Shown here: positions 5,420-20,851 of the stretch, in pieces
Numbering within the stretch: position 1 is the stretch's first letter
How the letters are laid out: every line of letters starts with the position of its first letter
From: a virus
IMG/VR virus record: IMGVR_UViG_3300022594_000034
Coordinates: 1 to 20,980 of that record
Strand: one strand, 5' to 3'
DNA: 20,980 bases
The notes under the pieces: model-generated
Database searches by the model: none
What the model was told of the DNA's origin: nothing
The model's input: the letters and a program-made list of their open reading frames with translations, nothing else
Translations under genes and position numbers: made by a program

Positions 5420-5610
5420 CCAATAATTTTACCAATTTGCGGTAAAACCTGTATCGTGATGCTAACCTTCTCATCTAGTGCCTCGACGAATGATTCATCA
5501 AACACGAGATCCTGCATGCTAAGGTCGATCAACTCTTCGACCCTAGCCAAATCTGCTTCACCCTCGCCACCGCATTCAATCGTGAATGTGAACGCGAACT
5601 TTCTAGTCAT
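5416..5610 (-). CDS. Hypothetical acidic protein, 64 aa
   Basis: Not recognised. Short and acidic, alternating beta strand (RKFAFTFTIECGG) and helix (EADLARVEELIDLSMQDL), then a beta strand (KVSITIQVLP): a small alpha/beta fold. AAAGGAG lies 8 nt before the ATG; the start overlaps the preceding gene by 8 nt. Last gene of the three-gene operon from 6525-6553. Confidence 0.75.
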   Translation of the reverse strand: MTRKFAFTFTIECGGEGEADLARVEELIDLSMQDLVFDESFVEALDEKVSITIQVLPQIGKIIG

Positions 5611-6220
5611 TGGCTTTCTCCTTTATGGCTTCTGCACCTTCTCTAACCCATTGAGTCAGCTCTTCTTCGTTCTCGGCTTCATATTCGGCCATCGTTTCGC
5701 TGATCTGCCAAACATCGTCCAATTCGTCACCAATTGCATCTCGAACTTGATCGGAACGCAAGTCAGTGAAGTCGTAGTAGTCATCGCCAAAGTCTGTTGT
5801 ATATTTGCCACAGTAGCACATGCCACATTCGTAGTAATATCCATCAACCCTAAAGCCCTGTTCTTCCATCTTTGCGTATGCATTGATTGGCGGAGCCCAG
5901 GCACTGTCGAAGTATAGCGTAATCGAGTTGGCTTCAACACTAACGATATCACACTCTACATCCCACTTGGTGCCCCATTCGTTTACACACCAATCATACC
6001 AGTTGGCATAACCGTGCTTCTCGATGTTGGCCTTTTCCTTTGCTTCTAGGGCAAGTTGCTCTTGCGGATCACCTACACAACCTGCTATAATGTGCAGGTC
6101 TTCAGGAACAGGAACAAACTCATTGAGCAACGCACCCTTGGCAGCCGCTTCCTTCATACGCACAATCATCGCAGGATCATCGTGCTGGAATGTCACAGAA
6201 TTATTACACCAATTAGGCAT
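5603..6220 (-). CDS. YubB/Api92-like (DUF1281-type) protein, 205 aa
   Basis: The N-terminus MPNWCNNSVTF is the hallmark of a family (YubB of plasmids, Api92-like phage proteins; ferredoxin-like fold) whose members start MPNWC.N. The start at 6220 is chosen for that motif and for GGGGAG 8 nt upstream. The middle carries the typical Trp-rich part (YANWYDWCVNEWGTKWD) and a conserved-looking FDSAWAPPINAYAKM, then an acidic C-terminal region rich in Tyr and Asp. The molecular function is unknown; the family is spread by plasmids and phages. Coupled to neighbours by 8-nt overlaps on both sides. Confidence 0.8.
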   Translation of the reverse strand: MPNWCNNSVTFQHDDPAMIVRMKEAAAKGALLNEFVPVPEDLHIIAGCVGDPQEQLALEAKEKANIEKHGYANWYDWCVNEWGTKWDVECDIVSVEANSITLYFDSAWAPPINAYAKMEEQGFRVDGYYYECGMCYCGKYTTDFGDDYYDFTDLRSDQVRDAIGDELDDVWQISETMAEYEAENEEELTQWVREGAEAIKEKAND

Positions 6221-6494
6221 GTGCCATCTCCCCAAATGTAGAAACAACTGCGTCTACGGCACGCTGATCGCGTCCACCAATATGCCAGCGATACCGTCCC
6301 ATTGGAGTTTCGTATTCCTTCCAATCATATATAGTGGCCACTGTGCCATCTTCAAACTCCAAGCACCACTCGGCTGTAGTCTTGTCACCACCACCTTCTG
6401 GCTCACCAAACACTGCTACCAGTTCATGATAGTAAGCGGTAACATAACCTTGCAGGCTTGTCATGTTAGCGTTTGCATCTTTTGTAAACTTCAT
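6213..6494 (-). CDS. Hypothetical protein, 93 aa
   Basis: A small protein with MTSLQGYVTAYYHELVAVFGEPEGGGDKTTAEWCLEFEDGTVATIYDWKEY, a pattern I have a sense of from other phage hypothetical proteins: a helix, then a beta hairpin and a WHIGG segment. No function known. GGAGCGA is the SD, with the standard leader behind the promoter at 6525-6553. First gene of a three-gene operon. Confidence 0.78.
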   Translation of the reverse strand: MKFTKDANANMTSLQGYVTAYYHELVAVFGEPEGGGDKTTAEWCLEFEDGTVATIYDWKEYETPMGRYRWHIGGRDQRAVDAVVSTFGEMAHA

Positions 6495-7696: not shown

Positions 7697-7885
7697 CTAG
7701 ACCTTCTTAAACAAATTCTTTACCTTTTCAAATTGCCTGCCTCGTTTGTCAAAGCCTTTGATGCCCTTCTTAAAATAGTAGGGCTCCTTCTCACCTACCT
7801 TGATGTAGGCTACTAGGGTTGTGCCATCCAGCAGGTATGTGTGTGCTGGAAAGGCACCCCCGGTTGTTTCCCGGAGGGCTTCCAT
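7697..7885 (-). CDS. Hypothetical basic protein, 62 aa
   Basis: Not recognised. A short protein with a Lys-rich C-terminal half (EKEPYYFKKGIKGFDKRGRQFEKVKNLFKKV), possibly nucleic-acid binding by charge. GAGG lies upstream of the ATG, which follows the stop of the 115-aa gene by 1 nt. Middle gene of its operon. Confidence 0.7.
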   Translation of the reverse strand: MEALRETTGGAFPAHTYLLDGTTLVAYIKVGEKEPYYFKKGIKGFDKRGRQFEKVKNLFKKV

Positions 7886-7886
7886 C

Positions 7887-8234
7887 TTAGTCCATCCTCG
7901 ATCCGGAGTAGACCTTGTCCAGGCCTAACTTCTGTTTAAGGACTTCTGCGTAGGCATCAGCGCCTGCTTCTTTAACAGAGATGCTCTGTGTAGGGTGGCC
8001 ACTTGGATTCCAAATCTGCAGGCTACCTGTGTAGTCTTTGCGGAAGCCAGCGGCCTGCAATGCCTTGCCCAACTTTGAGTTACTGCGAACGCCGTAGACG
8101 TTTACCCAAGCAAAGCCACAAGCATCACGCTCGCCAATCTTGCTGTACATCTGCTTGGCCGCTGTACGGGCCTGGATGCCTGCTTCGTTGAGTGCGTCTT
8201 GGACTGCCTCTAAGTTGAATGTCGCTGTAGTCAT
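7887..8234 (-). CDS. Hypothetical protein, 115 aa
   Basis: Not recognised. Starts MTTATFNLEAVQDALNEAGIQARTAAKQMYSKIGERDACGFAWVNVYGVRSNSKLGKALQAAGF, a mixed alpha/beta pattern; no signal or membrane segment. The SD is GGAGCGA behind the standard leader. First gene of a three-gene operon. Codon use is like the rest of the window, in contrast to the next unit on its right. Confidence 0.78.
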   Translation of the reverse strand: MTTATFNLEAVQDALNEAGIQARTAAKQMYSKIGERDACGFAWVNVYGVRSNSKLGKALQAAGFRKDYTGSLQIWNPSGHPTQSISVKEAGADAYAEVLKQKLGLDKVYSGSRMD

Positions 8235-8310: not shown

Positions 8311-8344
8311 ACAGCGGGGTCAGTGTGGCTTTTACGCCACACTG
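8311..8344 (-). terminator. 3' hairpin plus ACCCCGCTGT element
   Basis: 8-bp stem CAGTGTGG / CCACACTG (8321-8344) after the 8354-8704 gene, followed in transcript direction by ACCCCGCTGTAAGAGGG. The stem-loop GTGTGGCGTAAA-A-GCCACA is almost the same as that at 10693-10720, which is followed by the same element. There is no T-run, so it may be a processing or protection signal. Confidence 0.6.
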
Positions 8345-8353
8345 TGCTATATG

Positions 8354-8704
8354 CTAGTACTCCATACTCGCATAGCCGTCGTCTTGCATTCCCTGCTCTG
8401 TAAAACTAACACTAGTCCCTAGCAAGTCGCTAACAGCATTCTCAAAGCCGCTGTCTGTATACATGCGCCAGCTTTCGTCGCCGCCTGTGTGTACAACGCC
8501 TATGTGCGTACAAATGTCGCCGTCGTAGTCTGTTTCGCTAACATGTATCTCTTTAATTGTAACTGTTTTTAAATTACAGTCCCAAATACTGTCGCCTGCT
8601 AGTTGCACTTTTACATTGCACTTGTACTCCGTAGTAGTCGTGTCGTCTTCTACACGTGTCTCTACTAGTTTTAATTTTTTACTAACTGTGTTTAGTGTTT
8701 GCAT
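8354..8704 (-). CDS. Hypothetical protein, 116 aa, YC-free coding sequence
   Basis: Function unknown. An acidic beta-type protein (TTTTEYKCNVKVQLAGDSIWDCNLKTVTIKEIHVSETDYDGDICTHIGVVHTGGDESWRMYTDSGFENAVSDLLG). The coding strand contains no TC and no CC dinucleotide: all Ser codons are AGY, Phe is always TTT, and the protein has no proline. The neighbouring operons do not show this. GGAGCGAAAC is the SD, with an exact sigma70 promoter at 8735-8763. Last of three genes that share the bias. Confidence 0.78.
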   Translation of the reverse strand: MQTLNTVSKKLKLVETRVEDDTTTTEYKCNVKVQLAGDSIWDCNLKTVTIKEIHVSETDYDGDICTHIGVVHTGGDESWRMYTDSGFENAVSDLLGTSVSFTEQGMQDDGYASMEY

Positions 8705-8734
8705 AGTTTCGCTCCTATTGCTGTTTAAAATTGT

Positions 8735-8763
8735 ATTATACTACAGTTTAGCCAAAATGTCAA
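8735..8763 (-). promoter_or_regulatory. Sigma70 promoter for the 116-aa gene
   Basis: Exact TTGACA/17/TATAAT. The TGA of the 8760-8948 gene lies in the -35 box. Confidence 0.88.
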
Positions 8764-8948
8764 TCTGTAATTTGCATTTCTACTAACTGCTCCGCCGCTT
8801 CTTGTAGCTCGTCTGCTACATTTTCTATAGCACAATGCAAGTCGTAGCATTGTTCTGTATTGCCTAATGCACTTTGCATTAGTGCGTCTGTTTCGTTTAA
8901 TAATGCTATTGCTTGCTGTAATTTGTTTGCTTTGCTTATGTTGCTCAT
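8760..8948 (-). CDS. Small helical protein, 62 aa, YC-free coding sequence
   Basis: Not recognised. Almost wholly helical, with heptad-like Leu spacing (KLQQAIALLNETDALMQSALG ... VADELQEAAEQLVEM), so a coiled coil or small helical bundle is likely. The start at 8948 is chosen for AAGGAG 6 nt before it. The coding strand has no TC or CC dinucleotide and the protein has no Pro. It lies between the two other genes with the same bias. Confidence 0.75.
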   Translation of the reverse strand: MSNISKANKLQQAIALLNETDALMQSALGNTEQCYDLHCAIENVADELQEAAEQLVEMQITD

Positions 8949-8969
8949 TTTTGCTCCTTGTAAAATTGT

Positions 8970-8998
8970 ATTATAGCACACACTTGCATTTTGGACAA
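8970..8998 (-). promoter_or_regulatory. Sigma70-type promoter inside an inverted repeat
   Basis: TTGTCC, 17-bp spacer, TATAAT. The -35 is poor, but the -10 and spacing match the other promoters. The spacer and -35 lie within an 11-bp inverted repeat (8976-9006). Confidence 0.6.
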
Positions 8999-9006
8999 GT
9001 GTGTGC
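8976..9006 (-). terminator. 11-bp inverted repeat, terminator or operator
   Basis: GCACACACTTG / CAAGTGTGTGC with a 9-nt loop lies between the stop of the 9023-9286 gene and the -10 box of the next. Transcribed, it would be a strong hairpin at the end of the upstream message; in DNA it covers the next promoter. No clear T-run. Confidence 0.5.
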
Positions 9007-9022
9007 GCAATAGTTTACTAAA

Positions 9023-9286
9023 TTAGTCTACTATTACAATGCTGTTTGTGCGCATTGTTTTTTGTGCGCATTGCATTACATACGCTAAATCTGTTGCAAG
9101 TGTTTGCGCACTTAAATCTCCGCTAACATAATCGCATTTTTTTTGCACAGGAAATTTGTATACTACTTTGTTAAACTGTTTTTTAGTTTCAAAAACATTA
9201 AATGCGCAAACTAATTTGTAAGTGTCCAATTTTTTATTGTAAATTAGTTTTGCTTTTGCTACTGTGTTTAGTGCTGTTTTAAACAT
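9023..9286 (-). CDS. Hypothetical basic protein, 87 aa, YC-depleted coding sequence
   Basis: Not recognised. Lys-rich N-terminal half (AKAKLIYNKKLDTYKLVCAFNVFETKKQFNKVVYKFPVQKKCDY) and a helical C-terminal part. The start at 9286 is chosen for the GGAG 9 nt upstream; an in-frame ATG at 9313 would be at the very start of the transcript. In the CDS TC and CC occur only in TTTCCT, at the single proline codon, which cannot avoid them. First of the three genes with this bias. Confidence 0.72.
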   Translation of the reverse strand: MFKTALNTVAKAKLIYNKKLDTYKLVCAFNVFETKKQFNKVVYKFPVQKKCDYVSGDLSAQTLATDLAYVMQCAQKTMRTNSIVIVD

Positions 9287-9319
9287 TTTATTGCGCTCCG
9301 TTTTGTTTAACATGTGTGT

Positions 9320-9348
9320 ATTATAGCGCACTATGTCCAATTTGTCAA
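9320..9348 (-). promoter_or_regulatory. Sigma70 promoter for the 87-aa gene
   Basis: Exact TTGACA/17/TATAAT with a leader starting ACACACATG. Confidence 0.9.
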
Positions 9349-9357
9349 CCAATTTAT

Positions 9358-9384
9358 AATAACCCTATGCGCTGTAGGGTTATT
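9358..9384 (-). terminator. Hairpin terminator after the 108-aa gene
   Basis: 10-bp stem AATAACCCTA / TAGGGTTATT with a 7-nt loop, 8 nt after the stop of the 9392-9718 gene, followed by ATAAATT in transcript direction. It also marks the right border of the YC-poor island. Confidence 0.75.
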
Positions 9385-10726: not shown

Positions 10727-11950
10727 TCAATAACGCTTCAACTTCTTCTTTTCTTCCTCTTCATAGATAACACTTTGTCCGAATGGTGCTTCGTTAGTAT
10801 TACCTTTGATGACGAACAAGGTATCGCAATAGTCCTCGTCACCCCAACTGCCACATGGGTAGCCGTCTGTGAACATAATGAACTTCTTAGGCTCGATGCC
10901 GTTCTCTTTCATAAACTCATAGTTGGCGTCAAAGTCTGTGCCACCGCCACCCTGTAAGTCATAGTCCAACAAGTCATCGCCGTTGTCTTGTGTAAACACC
11001 TGTGGGTTATACACTGACGTATCAAATGTCCACAAGTGAATACGATAGTCTTCGTATTGATCCATAATGGCTTTGACTTCGCTAATGAATACCCTAGCGT
11101 CTGCATCACCAATAGAACCACTCATGTCAATTGCTACTGCAACATCGATAGTCTCATCGTTCTTCAAGCCTGGCAGGATTGCTCCTGTGTGCCAGCCCTT
11201 ACGGTTAGGACGGCTGAATGAATAGTCATTGCGGATAAGGCTTTGAATGTTCATACGCAGAACTTCACGCCAGTTCATCTTAGGCTCAGTCAAGTCTTTG
11301 ATCAAGCGTTGGATACCTGCTGGCACTTTACCTGCACCTGCCGCCGCGGCACTTTGAATCATTGCCTGCTTTACTTCATCGCGGATCTTCTGTGCATCTT
11401 CTTTGCTTAGGGTAGGCTTGCCCTTACCACCTTTGCCGTCTTTATCGCTTTCGTTACCAGCACCTTCTTGCTCGTTGATGTGCTCGTCCAACAAGTCACC
11501 TAACTGTTGCAGGAGTTGATCCATAGGAATCTTCTCTGCCTTTTCGTATAGGATGTCGTAGATCTCTTCCCAAGCCATACCTCTGTATTGGTTGTCCTGG
11601 CAAATCTTTACTTCAGTAATCTTGTCGCCAATACGCTCGTCTACAAGGATCTGATTGACTGCAAAGTCCTGTGCTATGTTAGACAGTTGACGATCGCGTG
11701 AACCTACTCGACCAAAGTGATCAAATACGCAATGGCAGATCTCATGTGCAAAGAGGAACTCTAGTTTCTTCTCGCTGAGTTTCTGCACGAACTTGGTATT
11801 GTAATAGAAGTCACGACCGTTAGTTGCCGCTGTCGGGCACCACTCGTCTGCTTCTACCAAACGCATACGAGTTGCCATGTTGCCAAAGAACGGAGTCTTT
11901 AACAGTAGGCCTACGCGGGCGGTAGTTAGTTTATCTACAATTGGGTCCAT
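10727..11950 (-). CDS. VWA domain / putative metallopeptidase (DUF2201-type)
   Basis: The N-terminal part carries HEICH at residues 69-73, a zinc HExxH motif in the setting typical of DUF2201_N. A Gly/Lys/Asp-rich linker (about 163-180) follows. The C-terminal VWA-like domain has a metal-dependent adhesion site: DMSGS at 275-279, GGGGTDF at 334-340 and FTDG at 360-363. Such proteins work with a MoxR-family ATPase, which is encoded directly upstream (12104-13189); together they probably remodel a protein complex or activate an enzyme. The gene has its own promoter and the SD GGAG. A Lys/Glu tail ends the protein. Family assignment is firm; the target is unknown. Confidence 0.88.
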   Translation of the reverse strand: MDPIVDKLTTARVGLLLKTPFFGNMATRMRLVEADEWCPTAATNGRDFYYNTKFVQKLSEKKLEFLFAHEICHCVFDHFGRVGSRDRQLSNIAQDFAVNQILVDERIGDKITEVKICQDNQYRGMAWEEIYDILYEKAEKIPMDQLLQQLGDLLDEHINEQEGAGNESDKDGKGGKGKPTLSKEDAQKIRDEVKQAMIQSAAAAGAGKVPAGIQRLIKDLTEPKMNWREVLRMNIQSLIRNDYSFSRPNRKGWHTGAILPGLKNDETIDVAVAIDMSGSIGDADARVFISEVKAIMDQYEDYRIHLWTFDTSVYNPQVFTQDNGDDLLDYDLQGGGGTDFDANYEFMKENGIEPKKFIMFTDGYPCGSWGDEDYCDTLFVIKGNTNEAPFGQSVIYEEEEKKKLKRY

Positions 11951-12051: not shown

Positions 12052-12118
12052 GGGCAGGCAAGCCCTGGGAGACCCCCTGCCCTGCAATGGAGCAGAGGTC
12101 TAATCAGTTCTCCATTGC
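12052..12118 (-). repeat. Two further hairpins in the 3' region of the MoxR gene
   Basis: GCAATGGAG / CTCCATTGC (12084-12118) includes the last codons and the stop codon; GGGCAGG / CCTGCCC (12052-12082) follows. Together with the terminator they make a heavily structured 3' end of about 100 nt. Confidence 0.55.
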
Positions 12119-13189
12119 CCGCAAAACATACTTGCCAAAACGCTTGTGGAACTCTTCGAAGCTCTTCATCTTCGTTGCATCCAAAGGCAAGTTATAGTTC
12201 GTCAACGCTGTCTTCGCGCCCATAACTACAATCTCTGTTGGGAAATTGTCCATCATATAGCGGAAGAAGTTATCAGCAAAGCCGTCCCAATTCTTCACTT
12301 GCTTCTCTGCACGGTCCTTCAACTCGTAGCACAAAGAGACTGTCAAAGAATACATCGCTGACACTTCTTTGATAGCCAAGTCTTTAACCTTGCCATCTAA
12401 GATGTCATCTGCTTTAGGCAATTTGCCTGCAATCTTACGGTGTGCCATAAACTTCACAGCCAGGCCATCACCAATTGCACCACTTACCAAAGTAGTCAGC
12501 GTATCTTCGTCACAGCCATCATCTGCGAGCAAGTCGCTAACGAATGACCAAGAGCGTGGAGTAGCGAACGACTTGCTAGAACCCTTAGGGTCAAAGTCAT
12601 ATAAGTCTTGCTTGGCAAAGCCTACATAACCAACAACCTCTGGGTGGATCTTGTTGAGCGTAGCCCAATCTTGCCAGTCATCAAAGTCTACCTTCATCTC
12701 TAAGTGCAAGAAGCGGTTAGCCAACGGAGCAGGCATTCTGTAGGTAACGCCACGGTCACCTTCGCGGTTACCTGCCGCTACAATGTCTACACCCTTAGGC
12801 AATTTGTAGGTGCCTACTGCACGGTTCAGAATCAACTGATAGGCCGCCGCTTGAACTGCTGGAGGAGCAGAGTTCAATTCGTCGATGAAGATGATAGCCT
12901 TGCTGTCAGGATCGCTAGGCAACTCAATTGGAGGAGCCCATGCCATCTTAGTAGCCACGCTGTCAAAGTATGGAATACCTTTAATGTCTGTAGGTTCCCA
13001 CAGGGCTAGTCGAATGTCGATAACTTCGCGATCGGTATCTTCACCAATCTGTGCTACCAACTCGGACTTACCAATTCCAGGGGGACCCCAAAGGAAGATT
13101 GGACGACGCATTTTAATTGCGTGACGGATTGCTTTTGTGGCGCCTTTTGGACCCACTTGGCGGACGGATGTATCAGTGCTTTTTGCCAT
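12104..13189 (-). CDS. MoxR-like AAA+ ATPase
   Basis: AAA+ ATPase of 361 aa. Walker A GPPGIGKS at residues 35-42, Walker B IIFIDE at 99-104, and a sensor-1 Asn in AAGN at 138-141, followed by the GDRGVTYRMPAPLANRF segment typical of the MoxR/CbbQ-like group. These ATPases act as chaperones or activators together with VWA proteins; the partner is the adjacent 10727-11950 gene. Such pairs occur in large phages as well as bacteria. SD AGAGG, with a promoter at 13242-13270 about 50 nt upstream. No sign of damage in the motifs. Confidence 0.9.
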   Translation of the reverse strand: MAKSTDTSVRQVGPKGATKAIRHAIKMRRPIFLWGPPGIGKSELVAQIGEDTDREVIDIRLALWEPTDIKGIPYFDSVATKMAWAPPIELPSDPDSKAIIFIDELNSAPPAVQAAAYQLILNRAVGTYKLPKGVDIVAAGNREGDRGVTYRMPAPLANRFLHLEMKVDFDDWQDWATLNKIHPEVVGYVGFAKQDLYDFDPKGSSKSFATPRSWSFVSDLLADDGCDEDTLTTLVSGAIGDGLAVKFMAHRKIAGKLPKADDILDGKVKDLAIKEVSAMYSLTVSLCYELKDRAEKQVKNWDGFADNFFRYMMDNFPTEIVVMGAKTALTNYNLPLDATKMKSFEEFHKRFGKYVLRAMEN

Positions 13190-20218: not shown

Positions 20219-20851
20219 ATGAGCAAAATAGTATACGATCACAATTACGTTAGAGTTATAGACCATGTAGTCGACGACAAGTGGTGCGATCAAATGGTTG
20301 AAGCATTTGAACTGTGCAAAGACTATCAAGTAGAAATACCCGGACGCCTATGGGAACTGGACTGCTATAATGTTAGAGCCAACCCCCGTGCTATATTCAA
20401 ACCCAAGGGTCTTACACGCAACAGTAACCTAGTCTACAACTGGACTCCGGATACAGATCGGCTTATGACCATAGTAAACGATCTATTCAACGACTTTAGA
20501 ACACGTTGGGACCCACATGCTTTCCTACCCGTAAAGTATGCGGCAGAAGGGTTTCGTATCAAGGCCTATGACCCCGGGGAACACATGTTCAAACTGCACG
20601 TGGATCAGGGCTGTCGCGATACAGCCACACGCTTTCTAGCATTTCTGATCTATCTAAATGACAACGAAGCGGGCACTGAGTTTATCAACGAATTAGATGA
20701 CAAGGGTAACCCTCTGGTAGTTCGAGCTAAGAAGGGTAGGGTCTGTGTATTCACCCCCACGTGGCACTACCCCCATATAGGGCATATGCCCCATACTAAC
20801 AAAAAGTACATAATGAGTACTTACCTACACTACATACCCAAGGGCGCATGA
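20219..20851 (+). CDS. 2OG-Fe(II) oxygenase, prolyl-hydroxylase-like, 210 aa
   Basis: The core LHVDQ (HVD at 127-129) supplies two iron ligands; the third is a His in TWHYPHIGHMPH (183-189), and KKYIMSTYLHY follows, with Lys195/196 in the position usually held by the Arg or Lys that binds 2OG. The segment FLAFLIYLNDNEAGTEF is the typical strand between them. Such enzymes hydroxylate proteins or nucleic acids; the substrate is unknown. A TTAAATA box lies 4 nt before the ATG and there is no SD. It directly follows the virion-type gene, so virion or host protein modification is plausible. Confidence 0.85.
   Translation: MSKIVYDHNYVRVIDHVVDDKWCDQMVEAFELCKDYQVEIPGRLWELDCYNVRANPRAIFKPKGLTRNSNLVYNWTPDTDRLMTIVNDLFNDFRTRWDPHAFLPVKYAAEGFRIKAYDPGEHMFKLHVDQGCRDTATRFLAFLIYLNDNEAGTEFINELDDKGNPLVVRAKKGRVCVFTPTWHYPHIGHMPHTNKKYIMSTYLHYIPKGA

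Follow-up and report, generated by a model that had tools for sequence, protein, structure and literature searches.

The window analysed here comprises 20,980 bases of a large, uncultured phage (IMG/VR record IMGVR_UViG_3300022594_000034). Small genes are numerous on the minus strand, and every one of them is preceded by a strong sigma70-type promoter and a AGGAGCGA-like ribosome site of its own. Three of these genes form an island (8333–9377, minus strand) that is almost free of YC, the pyrimidine-to-C step on the coding strand (TC plus CC; its complement, GA or GG, is termed GR). First in the direction of transcription is a coding sequence (CDS) for an 87-amino-acid (aa) protein of the 'YNKKL...FPVQ...YVSGDL' family (9286–9023), preceded by a predicted promoter (9320–9348) in which TTGACA (9348–9343) and TATAAT (9325–9320) lie 17 nucleotides (nt) apart, as identified and scored from sequence. 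It is followed by a 62-aa CDS of the 'MSNISKAxKL...EQLVEMQIT' family (8948–8760), with a TTGTCC–17 nt–TATAAT promoter (8970–8998), and by a 116-aa CDS of the 'EQGMQ' family (FTEQGMQDDGYASME; 8704–8354), a family found in nearly every island, with a TTGACA (8763–8758)–17 nt–TATAAT (8740–8735) promoter at 8735–8763, again read from sequence. The island limits lie within two minus-strand hairpins: YC ends inside AATAACCCTA/TAGGGTTATT (9358–9384), 3′ of an upstream 108-aa gene, and is back in the second arm (8327) of CAGTGTGGC/GCCACACTG (8321–8344), directly 3′ of the 116-aa stop codon. The adjoining genes are normal; both points agree with an initial sequence-only reading of this DNA.

Between 8327 and 9377 of the plus strand, G is followed by A or G solely at the GGA triplets 8993–8995 and 9150–9152. 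The sequence-only reading had placed both correctly, but the coding strand reads TCC at both triplets, which gives the island four YC steps (2 TC and 2 CC), not two. About 76 (76.4) would be expected among its 417 pyrimidines from the flanking transition rates. No other GR-free gap in the window comes close to the one of 666 nt; outside the island the maximum is 147 nt. The bias is confined to one strand, and the plus strand has TC and CC at normal levels within the island. One exception lies in the −35 box of the 62-aa gene (8993–8995); the other (TCC at 9150–9152, minus strand) lies within TTTCCT, the Phe-Pro of the 87-aa protein, which includes the only Pro and, as had been claimed, the only two YC steps of the three CDSs. 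Recoding these CDSs with the codon usage of the window gave 43.9 ± 5.7 YC steps (minimum 23 in 10,000 trials), and shuffling the genes' own synonymous codons gave 6.9 ± 1.5 (P = 0.0002). The depletion therefore survives the codon-shuffled null that had been named as its test, and the second figure indicates that codon order was adjusted too. The TTTCCT/TTCCT exception of the 87-aa family is retained in about 10 loci, and the FP(V/T)Q proline is kept against the YC rule, as a functional residue would be.

The 116-aa protein has 52 IMG/VR relatives with 39–90% identity, all of them on metagenomic contigs with genes called by our own open reading frame (ORF) and ribosome-site rules; several loci are near-duplicates, so locus counts are not counts of independent events. 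In 43 of the 52 the EQGMQ gene has no YC at all, where roughly 11–32 steps are expected, so that the depletion extends to homologous loci. Islands around this gene span about 0.4–2.7 kb, some of them perfect over 1,138, 1,180, 1,354 or 2,043 nt, and a very remote member, with 28% identity, lacks YC across 721 nt. Members without the trait are outliers, either partly depleted (L043, L045, L056) or embedded in larger proteins (L050, L052, L187–L214). Such islands occur in many large environmental phages. We compared long genomes with an island (G007, 353 kb; G002, 180 of 185 kb; G011, 257 kb; G025, 275 kb), long genomes without one (G015, 400 kb; G027, 268 kb) and additional shorter contigs. In a blind scan, 2,123 genes from 12 phage genomes or contigs were tested for 100 dinucleotide classes of one or two letters. 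YC ranked first in island genes and GR in a few, with all such exclusions in one cluster; other matches were long genes with mild biases, and the scan of G015 and G027 found no such exclusion. In the four long island records (180–353 kb) the trait is limited to a single cluster of about 1–4 kb, and in one genome to nine adjacent small genes. Equal depletion elsewhere, which would have undercut the finding, was thus sought and not found, and import from a genome YC-free throughout, one of the causes first considered, is contradicted by these long records.

The probability of C after a pyrimidine was 0.009, 0.012 and 0.010 in the three codon phases, versus 0.16–0.26 outside. Codon and amino-acid statistics were pooled over 26 loci picked to limit redundancy, and C after purines was enriched in island genes. 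GCC, ACC, GTC and ATC largely give way to A-ending codons; among Ala codons, GCA rises to.57 in the island versus.37 outside and GCT stands at.26 versus.30. Ser keeps a steady share of 5.2%, encoded by AGY codons only, and Pro drops from 3.2% to 0.2%. Both codon choice and amino-acid content are therefore shaped against YC, as initially suspected. Equal purging of the three codon phases, A as the main substitute for the lost C and retention of Ser through AGY identify selection, not a C-to-T footprint, as the source of the YC loss.

These numbers bear directly on a cytosine deaminase that wore YC sites away by C-to-T change, an explanation that we regard as very unlikely. The preference for YC with a 3′ A described below does resemble TC-preferring deaminases, and APOBEC3 footprints at adenovirus ends have a coding-strand bias (PMC7449416). 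In such footprints of human viruses a TC-type motif is likewise lost, and the loss can be restricted to the coding strand of a handful of genes; however, NTC alone is depleted, NTT is enriched and TCN is spared (PMC7449416), whereas the islands lose YC in every codon phase, CC included, mostly to A and down to zero. T is not the main replacement (the island version has YT at only 5 of 27 aligned YC sites in orthologue pairs, and the share of GCT does not rise), and normal and GR-free genes interrupt the island. Two other origins were rejected. Loss of a tRNA does not fit, since the same tRNA serves TTC and TTT and since YC steps spanning two codons are purged just as much. A regional mutational process near an origin is contradicted by islands lying in co-directional operons with no consistent origin from GC skew, and by alternating YC-free and GR-free genes.

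Next, we profiled 136 depleted genes and 839 controls around the start codon. YC falls to 0.13 of control at −60 to −31 and is absent at −30 to −8 (0/1,280) and at 0 to +9 (0/530), after which it stays at about 0.01 in the gene body. It is tolerated at −7 to −1 (14/293), and each of the 14 exceptions in leaders falls in the spacer that separates the Shine-Dalgarno box from the AUG (chance about 6e-11, by our arithmetic). Past the last stop codon, YC returns over successive 10-nt bins (0.00, then 0.04, 0.07 and 0.10); past interior stop codons it remains near zero, and intergenic RNA inside islands is YC-free. In half-depleted genes YCA is the most avoided context and YCC the least: at third codon positions, TCA stands at 0.13 versus 1.37 in controls and CCA at 0.24 versus 1.43. 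On the template strand, fully YC-free genes show a weak avoidance in which contexts rank alike (TGAT, which is complementary to ATCA, 0.11; TGAG, 0.38; TGGT, 0.37); control genes lack it. The motif read by the agent is therefore Y-C-(A), and the sense strand is overwhelmingly the one affected. Together, these results show an absolute, frame-blind exclusion on the sense strand that begins near the transcription start, ends at the last stop codon and is held by selection over deep divergence.

The primary RNA site of the termination factor Rho recognises 5′-YC-3′, and YC-free transcripts would resist Rho-dependent termination. This explanation matches both dinucleotide and strand exactly, YC being absent from the RNA strand, and also fits the YC-free intergenic RNA within islands. 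Yet Rho needs many YC sites, and here lone sites are purged from leaders (none among 1,280 positions) and ORFs, where scattered ones should be tolerated. Translated ORFs are already shielded from Rho; Rho favours C-rich RNA, whereas here YCA is most avoided and TC is avoided at least as much as CC; and neither the GR-free genes nor the tolerated spacer between the Shine-Dalgarno box and the AUG is accounted for. We therefore consider escape from Rho improbable.

A few genes of the cluster, in one clade, are GR-free rather than YC-free. At locus L126, nine adjacent co-directional genes include, in order, four YC-free genes, a GR-free one, a YC-free one, a second GR-free one and a further YC-free one; the two GR-free genes have counts of 17/30 (YC) and 3/22 (GR) in the first and 5/33 (YC) and 2/36 (GR) in the second. 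Two genes of L042 are without both classes and, as a consequence, without Asp, Glu or Gly. One 12-member protein family has nine YC-free members, two GR-free ones and one low in both, and a YC-rich gene is located inside the island of L006. With YC-free, GR-free and normal genes side by side on one strand, this mosaic is incompatible with a mutational process acting regionally. That YC-free, GR-free and doubly free genes occur together is odd under any single known agent, which leaves room for another effect on the use of DNA or RNA, such as message sorting, a phage polymerase or a modification of another kind. No positive evidence points to such an effect, and we rate it as rather unlikely. 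The GR-lacking genes lie at L042:11943–12185 (minus strand) and 12440–12691 (plus strand), L126:7001–7270 and 7758–8108, L038:4140–4409 and L051:9564–9914; their proteins lack Asp, Glu and Gly nearly or wholly, and two of the genes lack both classes. Between the two divergent doubly depleted genes of L042 lies an inverted repeat (12270–12345; AACATGTTAACTACC...GGTAG...TTAACATGTT).

We propose, as a reading with about an even chance of being right, that the islands encode messages whose lack of YC protects them from an effector that acts on RNA and that would need only a single YC to be fatal. The message is suggested as the target by the frame-blind, sense-strand, single-hit character of the rule, its span from transcription start to stop codon and the gap at the position of the initiating ribosome; the purging of single sites is what is expected if one hit suffices. 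The effector, a dinucleotide-specific nuclease or mRNA-modifying enzyme from host defence or from the phage's own takeover, would become active during infection and would need merely a 5′-YC-3′ step, best with A next. Under attack, ordinary messages with their tens of YC would be cut or blocked, and the small proteins of the cluster would continue to be produced, presumably because that is the time at which they are required, for example to neutralise the effector. The initiating ribosome would shield the RNA at −7 to −1, where YC is tolerated, and in the clade with GR-free genes, those genes would yield messages that a second effector cannot attack. Four points of this proposal are inferred: the existence of an effector, RNA as its target, a benefit from being expressed under attack, and a role of the proteins as countermeasures. 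Among the causes listed by the sequence-only reading, avoidance of an RNase or a modification fits best.

Bacterial immunity includes RNA effectors that recognise a dinucleotide. The RNase SisCsx1 cleaves CC and weakly UC (PMC6754442), and the ADP-ribosyltransferase CmdT of the CmdTAC system modifies GA in mRNA and thereby blocks translation (PMC11618068). Both are defence effectors with dinucleotide specificity on single-stranded RNA; they differ in that no homologue was found near the islands and that escape by recoding is not known for them. In MazF-arrested cells, messages without ACA are translated, which is the basis of single-protein production (PMC5408214); there, as proposed here, destruction of the other mRNA leaves target-stripped messages to be translated selectively, although that system is engineered and has a 3-nt target, whereas the islands are natural, avoid 2 nt, cover several genes and are conserved across diverged phages.

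The pre-early DNA of phage T5 lacks EcoRI sites. Avoidance of restriction sites by phages, T5 included, resembles the islands in that selection removes the targets of attack, locally so in the first-expressed genes of T5; it concerns palindromes of 4–6 bp on both DNA strands, in contrast to a dinucleotide on the sense strand only. The target is not missing from both strands here, since GR is normal in most island genes, and with the opposite strand nearly untouched a strand-blind PAM (protospacer adjacent motif) or restriction site, also raised at first, falls away.

Several results weigh against messages immune to an effector. The exclusion follows the transcript and ignores frame, as that reading predicts; however, promoter DNA is partly depleted too. 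Depletion extends to untranscribed promoter DNA, where it is about 3–4-fold for the first gene and complete for promoters in the interior; pure selection on mRNA does not need this unless transcripts read through or operators are shared. The weak template-strand avoidance hints that the agent can recognise the other strand as well, and the Shine-Dalgarno box of GR-free genes still has GR. Shielding of the YC exceptions by RNA structure was not seen, as remaining YC sites are no more base-paired than RC sites (unpaired 0.398 versus 0.401). The effector was not found, a PADLOC scan of island proteins being unconvincing, and the island proteins tested had no convincing match in Pfam, PHROGs or PADLOC and so belong to no recognisable family.

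Depleted promoter DNA is the main argument for avoidance at the DNA level, which we consider unlikely: a host single-strand-specific nuclease or deaminase would attack YC in phage DNA, mainly on the transcription-exposed non-template strand. With no greater probability, the cluster would be first-expressed DNA without sites, whose products then protect the remaining genome. The YCA-first ranking on both strands, strong on the coding and weak on the template strand, agrees with this, as does the presence of one cluster per genome. Among contigs longer than 100 kb, 8 of 17 have the EQGMQ gene or a linked island gene less than 6 kb from one end (1.2 expected), a position that could mark a genome terminus. 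These ends may instead reflect assembly breakage at a variable locus, or nothing more than strain variation. The tolerated spacer before the AUG and the limit at the last stop codon would be meaningless in DNA, YC-free and GR-free genes alternate, and template-strand YC is unavoided in most contexts even at synonymous sites (AGAC, CGAC and CGGC are enriched). The near-end contigs are those behind L002, L009, L024, L038, L044, L054, L136 and L137.

Returning to messages immune to an effector, we suggest with slightly less than even confidence that the islands represent 'effector-blind' phage cassettes, in which natural messages have lost a whole dinucleotide class through evolution (mostly YC, in a few genes the complementary GR) so that countermeasures get translated as dinucleotide-specific RNA effectors eliminate or stall every other mRNA, and in which the excluded dinucleotide would read out the specificity of an undiscovered defence. 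If so, the coding sequence itself would be an anti-defence device whose missing dinucleotide names the evaded effector, and absence of a dinucleotide from one strand would offer a computational route to counter-defence genes and RNA-targeting defences. Whatever the mechanism, the total loss from one strand, in one cluster and over deep protein divergence, has to be explained by theories of codon choice. A limited literature search (open-licence papers, few word combinations) found no earlier description.

AlphaFold2 modelled the 116-aa protein with confidence (mean pLDDT 88.6) as a compact beta-rich domain with two helices. Foldseek with this model found no significant match among solved structures in the PDB and, in BFVD, a single marginal match without a name (M1HTR4, TM 0.71). 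The AcrIII-1 ring nuclease family PF08960 was looked for and is absent, and searches of cultured phages and of bacterial genomes led nowhere. The EQGMQ domain recurs within larger proteins of other phages (the loci L050, L052 and L187–L214 mentioned above) with normal dinucleotides, and the protein as the cause of YC loss was rejected because the same domain there coexists with normal YC.

Island promoters carry an inverted repeat around −35/−10 (GCACACTTGACATTTTGGACAATGTGTGC type; for example L005:9190–9255, L040:6990–8060 and 8970–9000 of the window), possibly an operator or overlapping terminator common to the cluster. A separate second YC-poor gene (L037:15019–15432, minus strand; 5 YC versus 34.8) is depleted on its own coding strand; it has the opposite orientation to the main island and lies 5 kb away from it. 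In G015, a 4,744-aa protein of GVQ-type repeats (132283–146517) has 315 GA versus 1,142 expected, due to the repeat. In the window, the neighbouring genes at 10727–11950, 12104–13189, 5603–6247 and 20219–20851 (the last on the plus strand) have normal dinucleotides; between them they encode a DUF2201 metallopeptidase/VWA protein, a MoxR-like AAA ATPase, an Api92-like (DUF1281) protein and a 2OG-Fe(II) oxygenase. The protein at 10727–11950, the partner of the ATPase, is similar to those of jumbo phages including Phosso, PA5oct and Atu_ph07.
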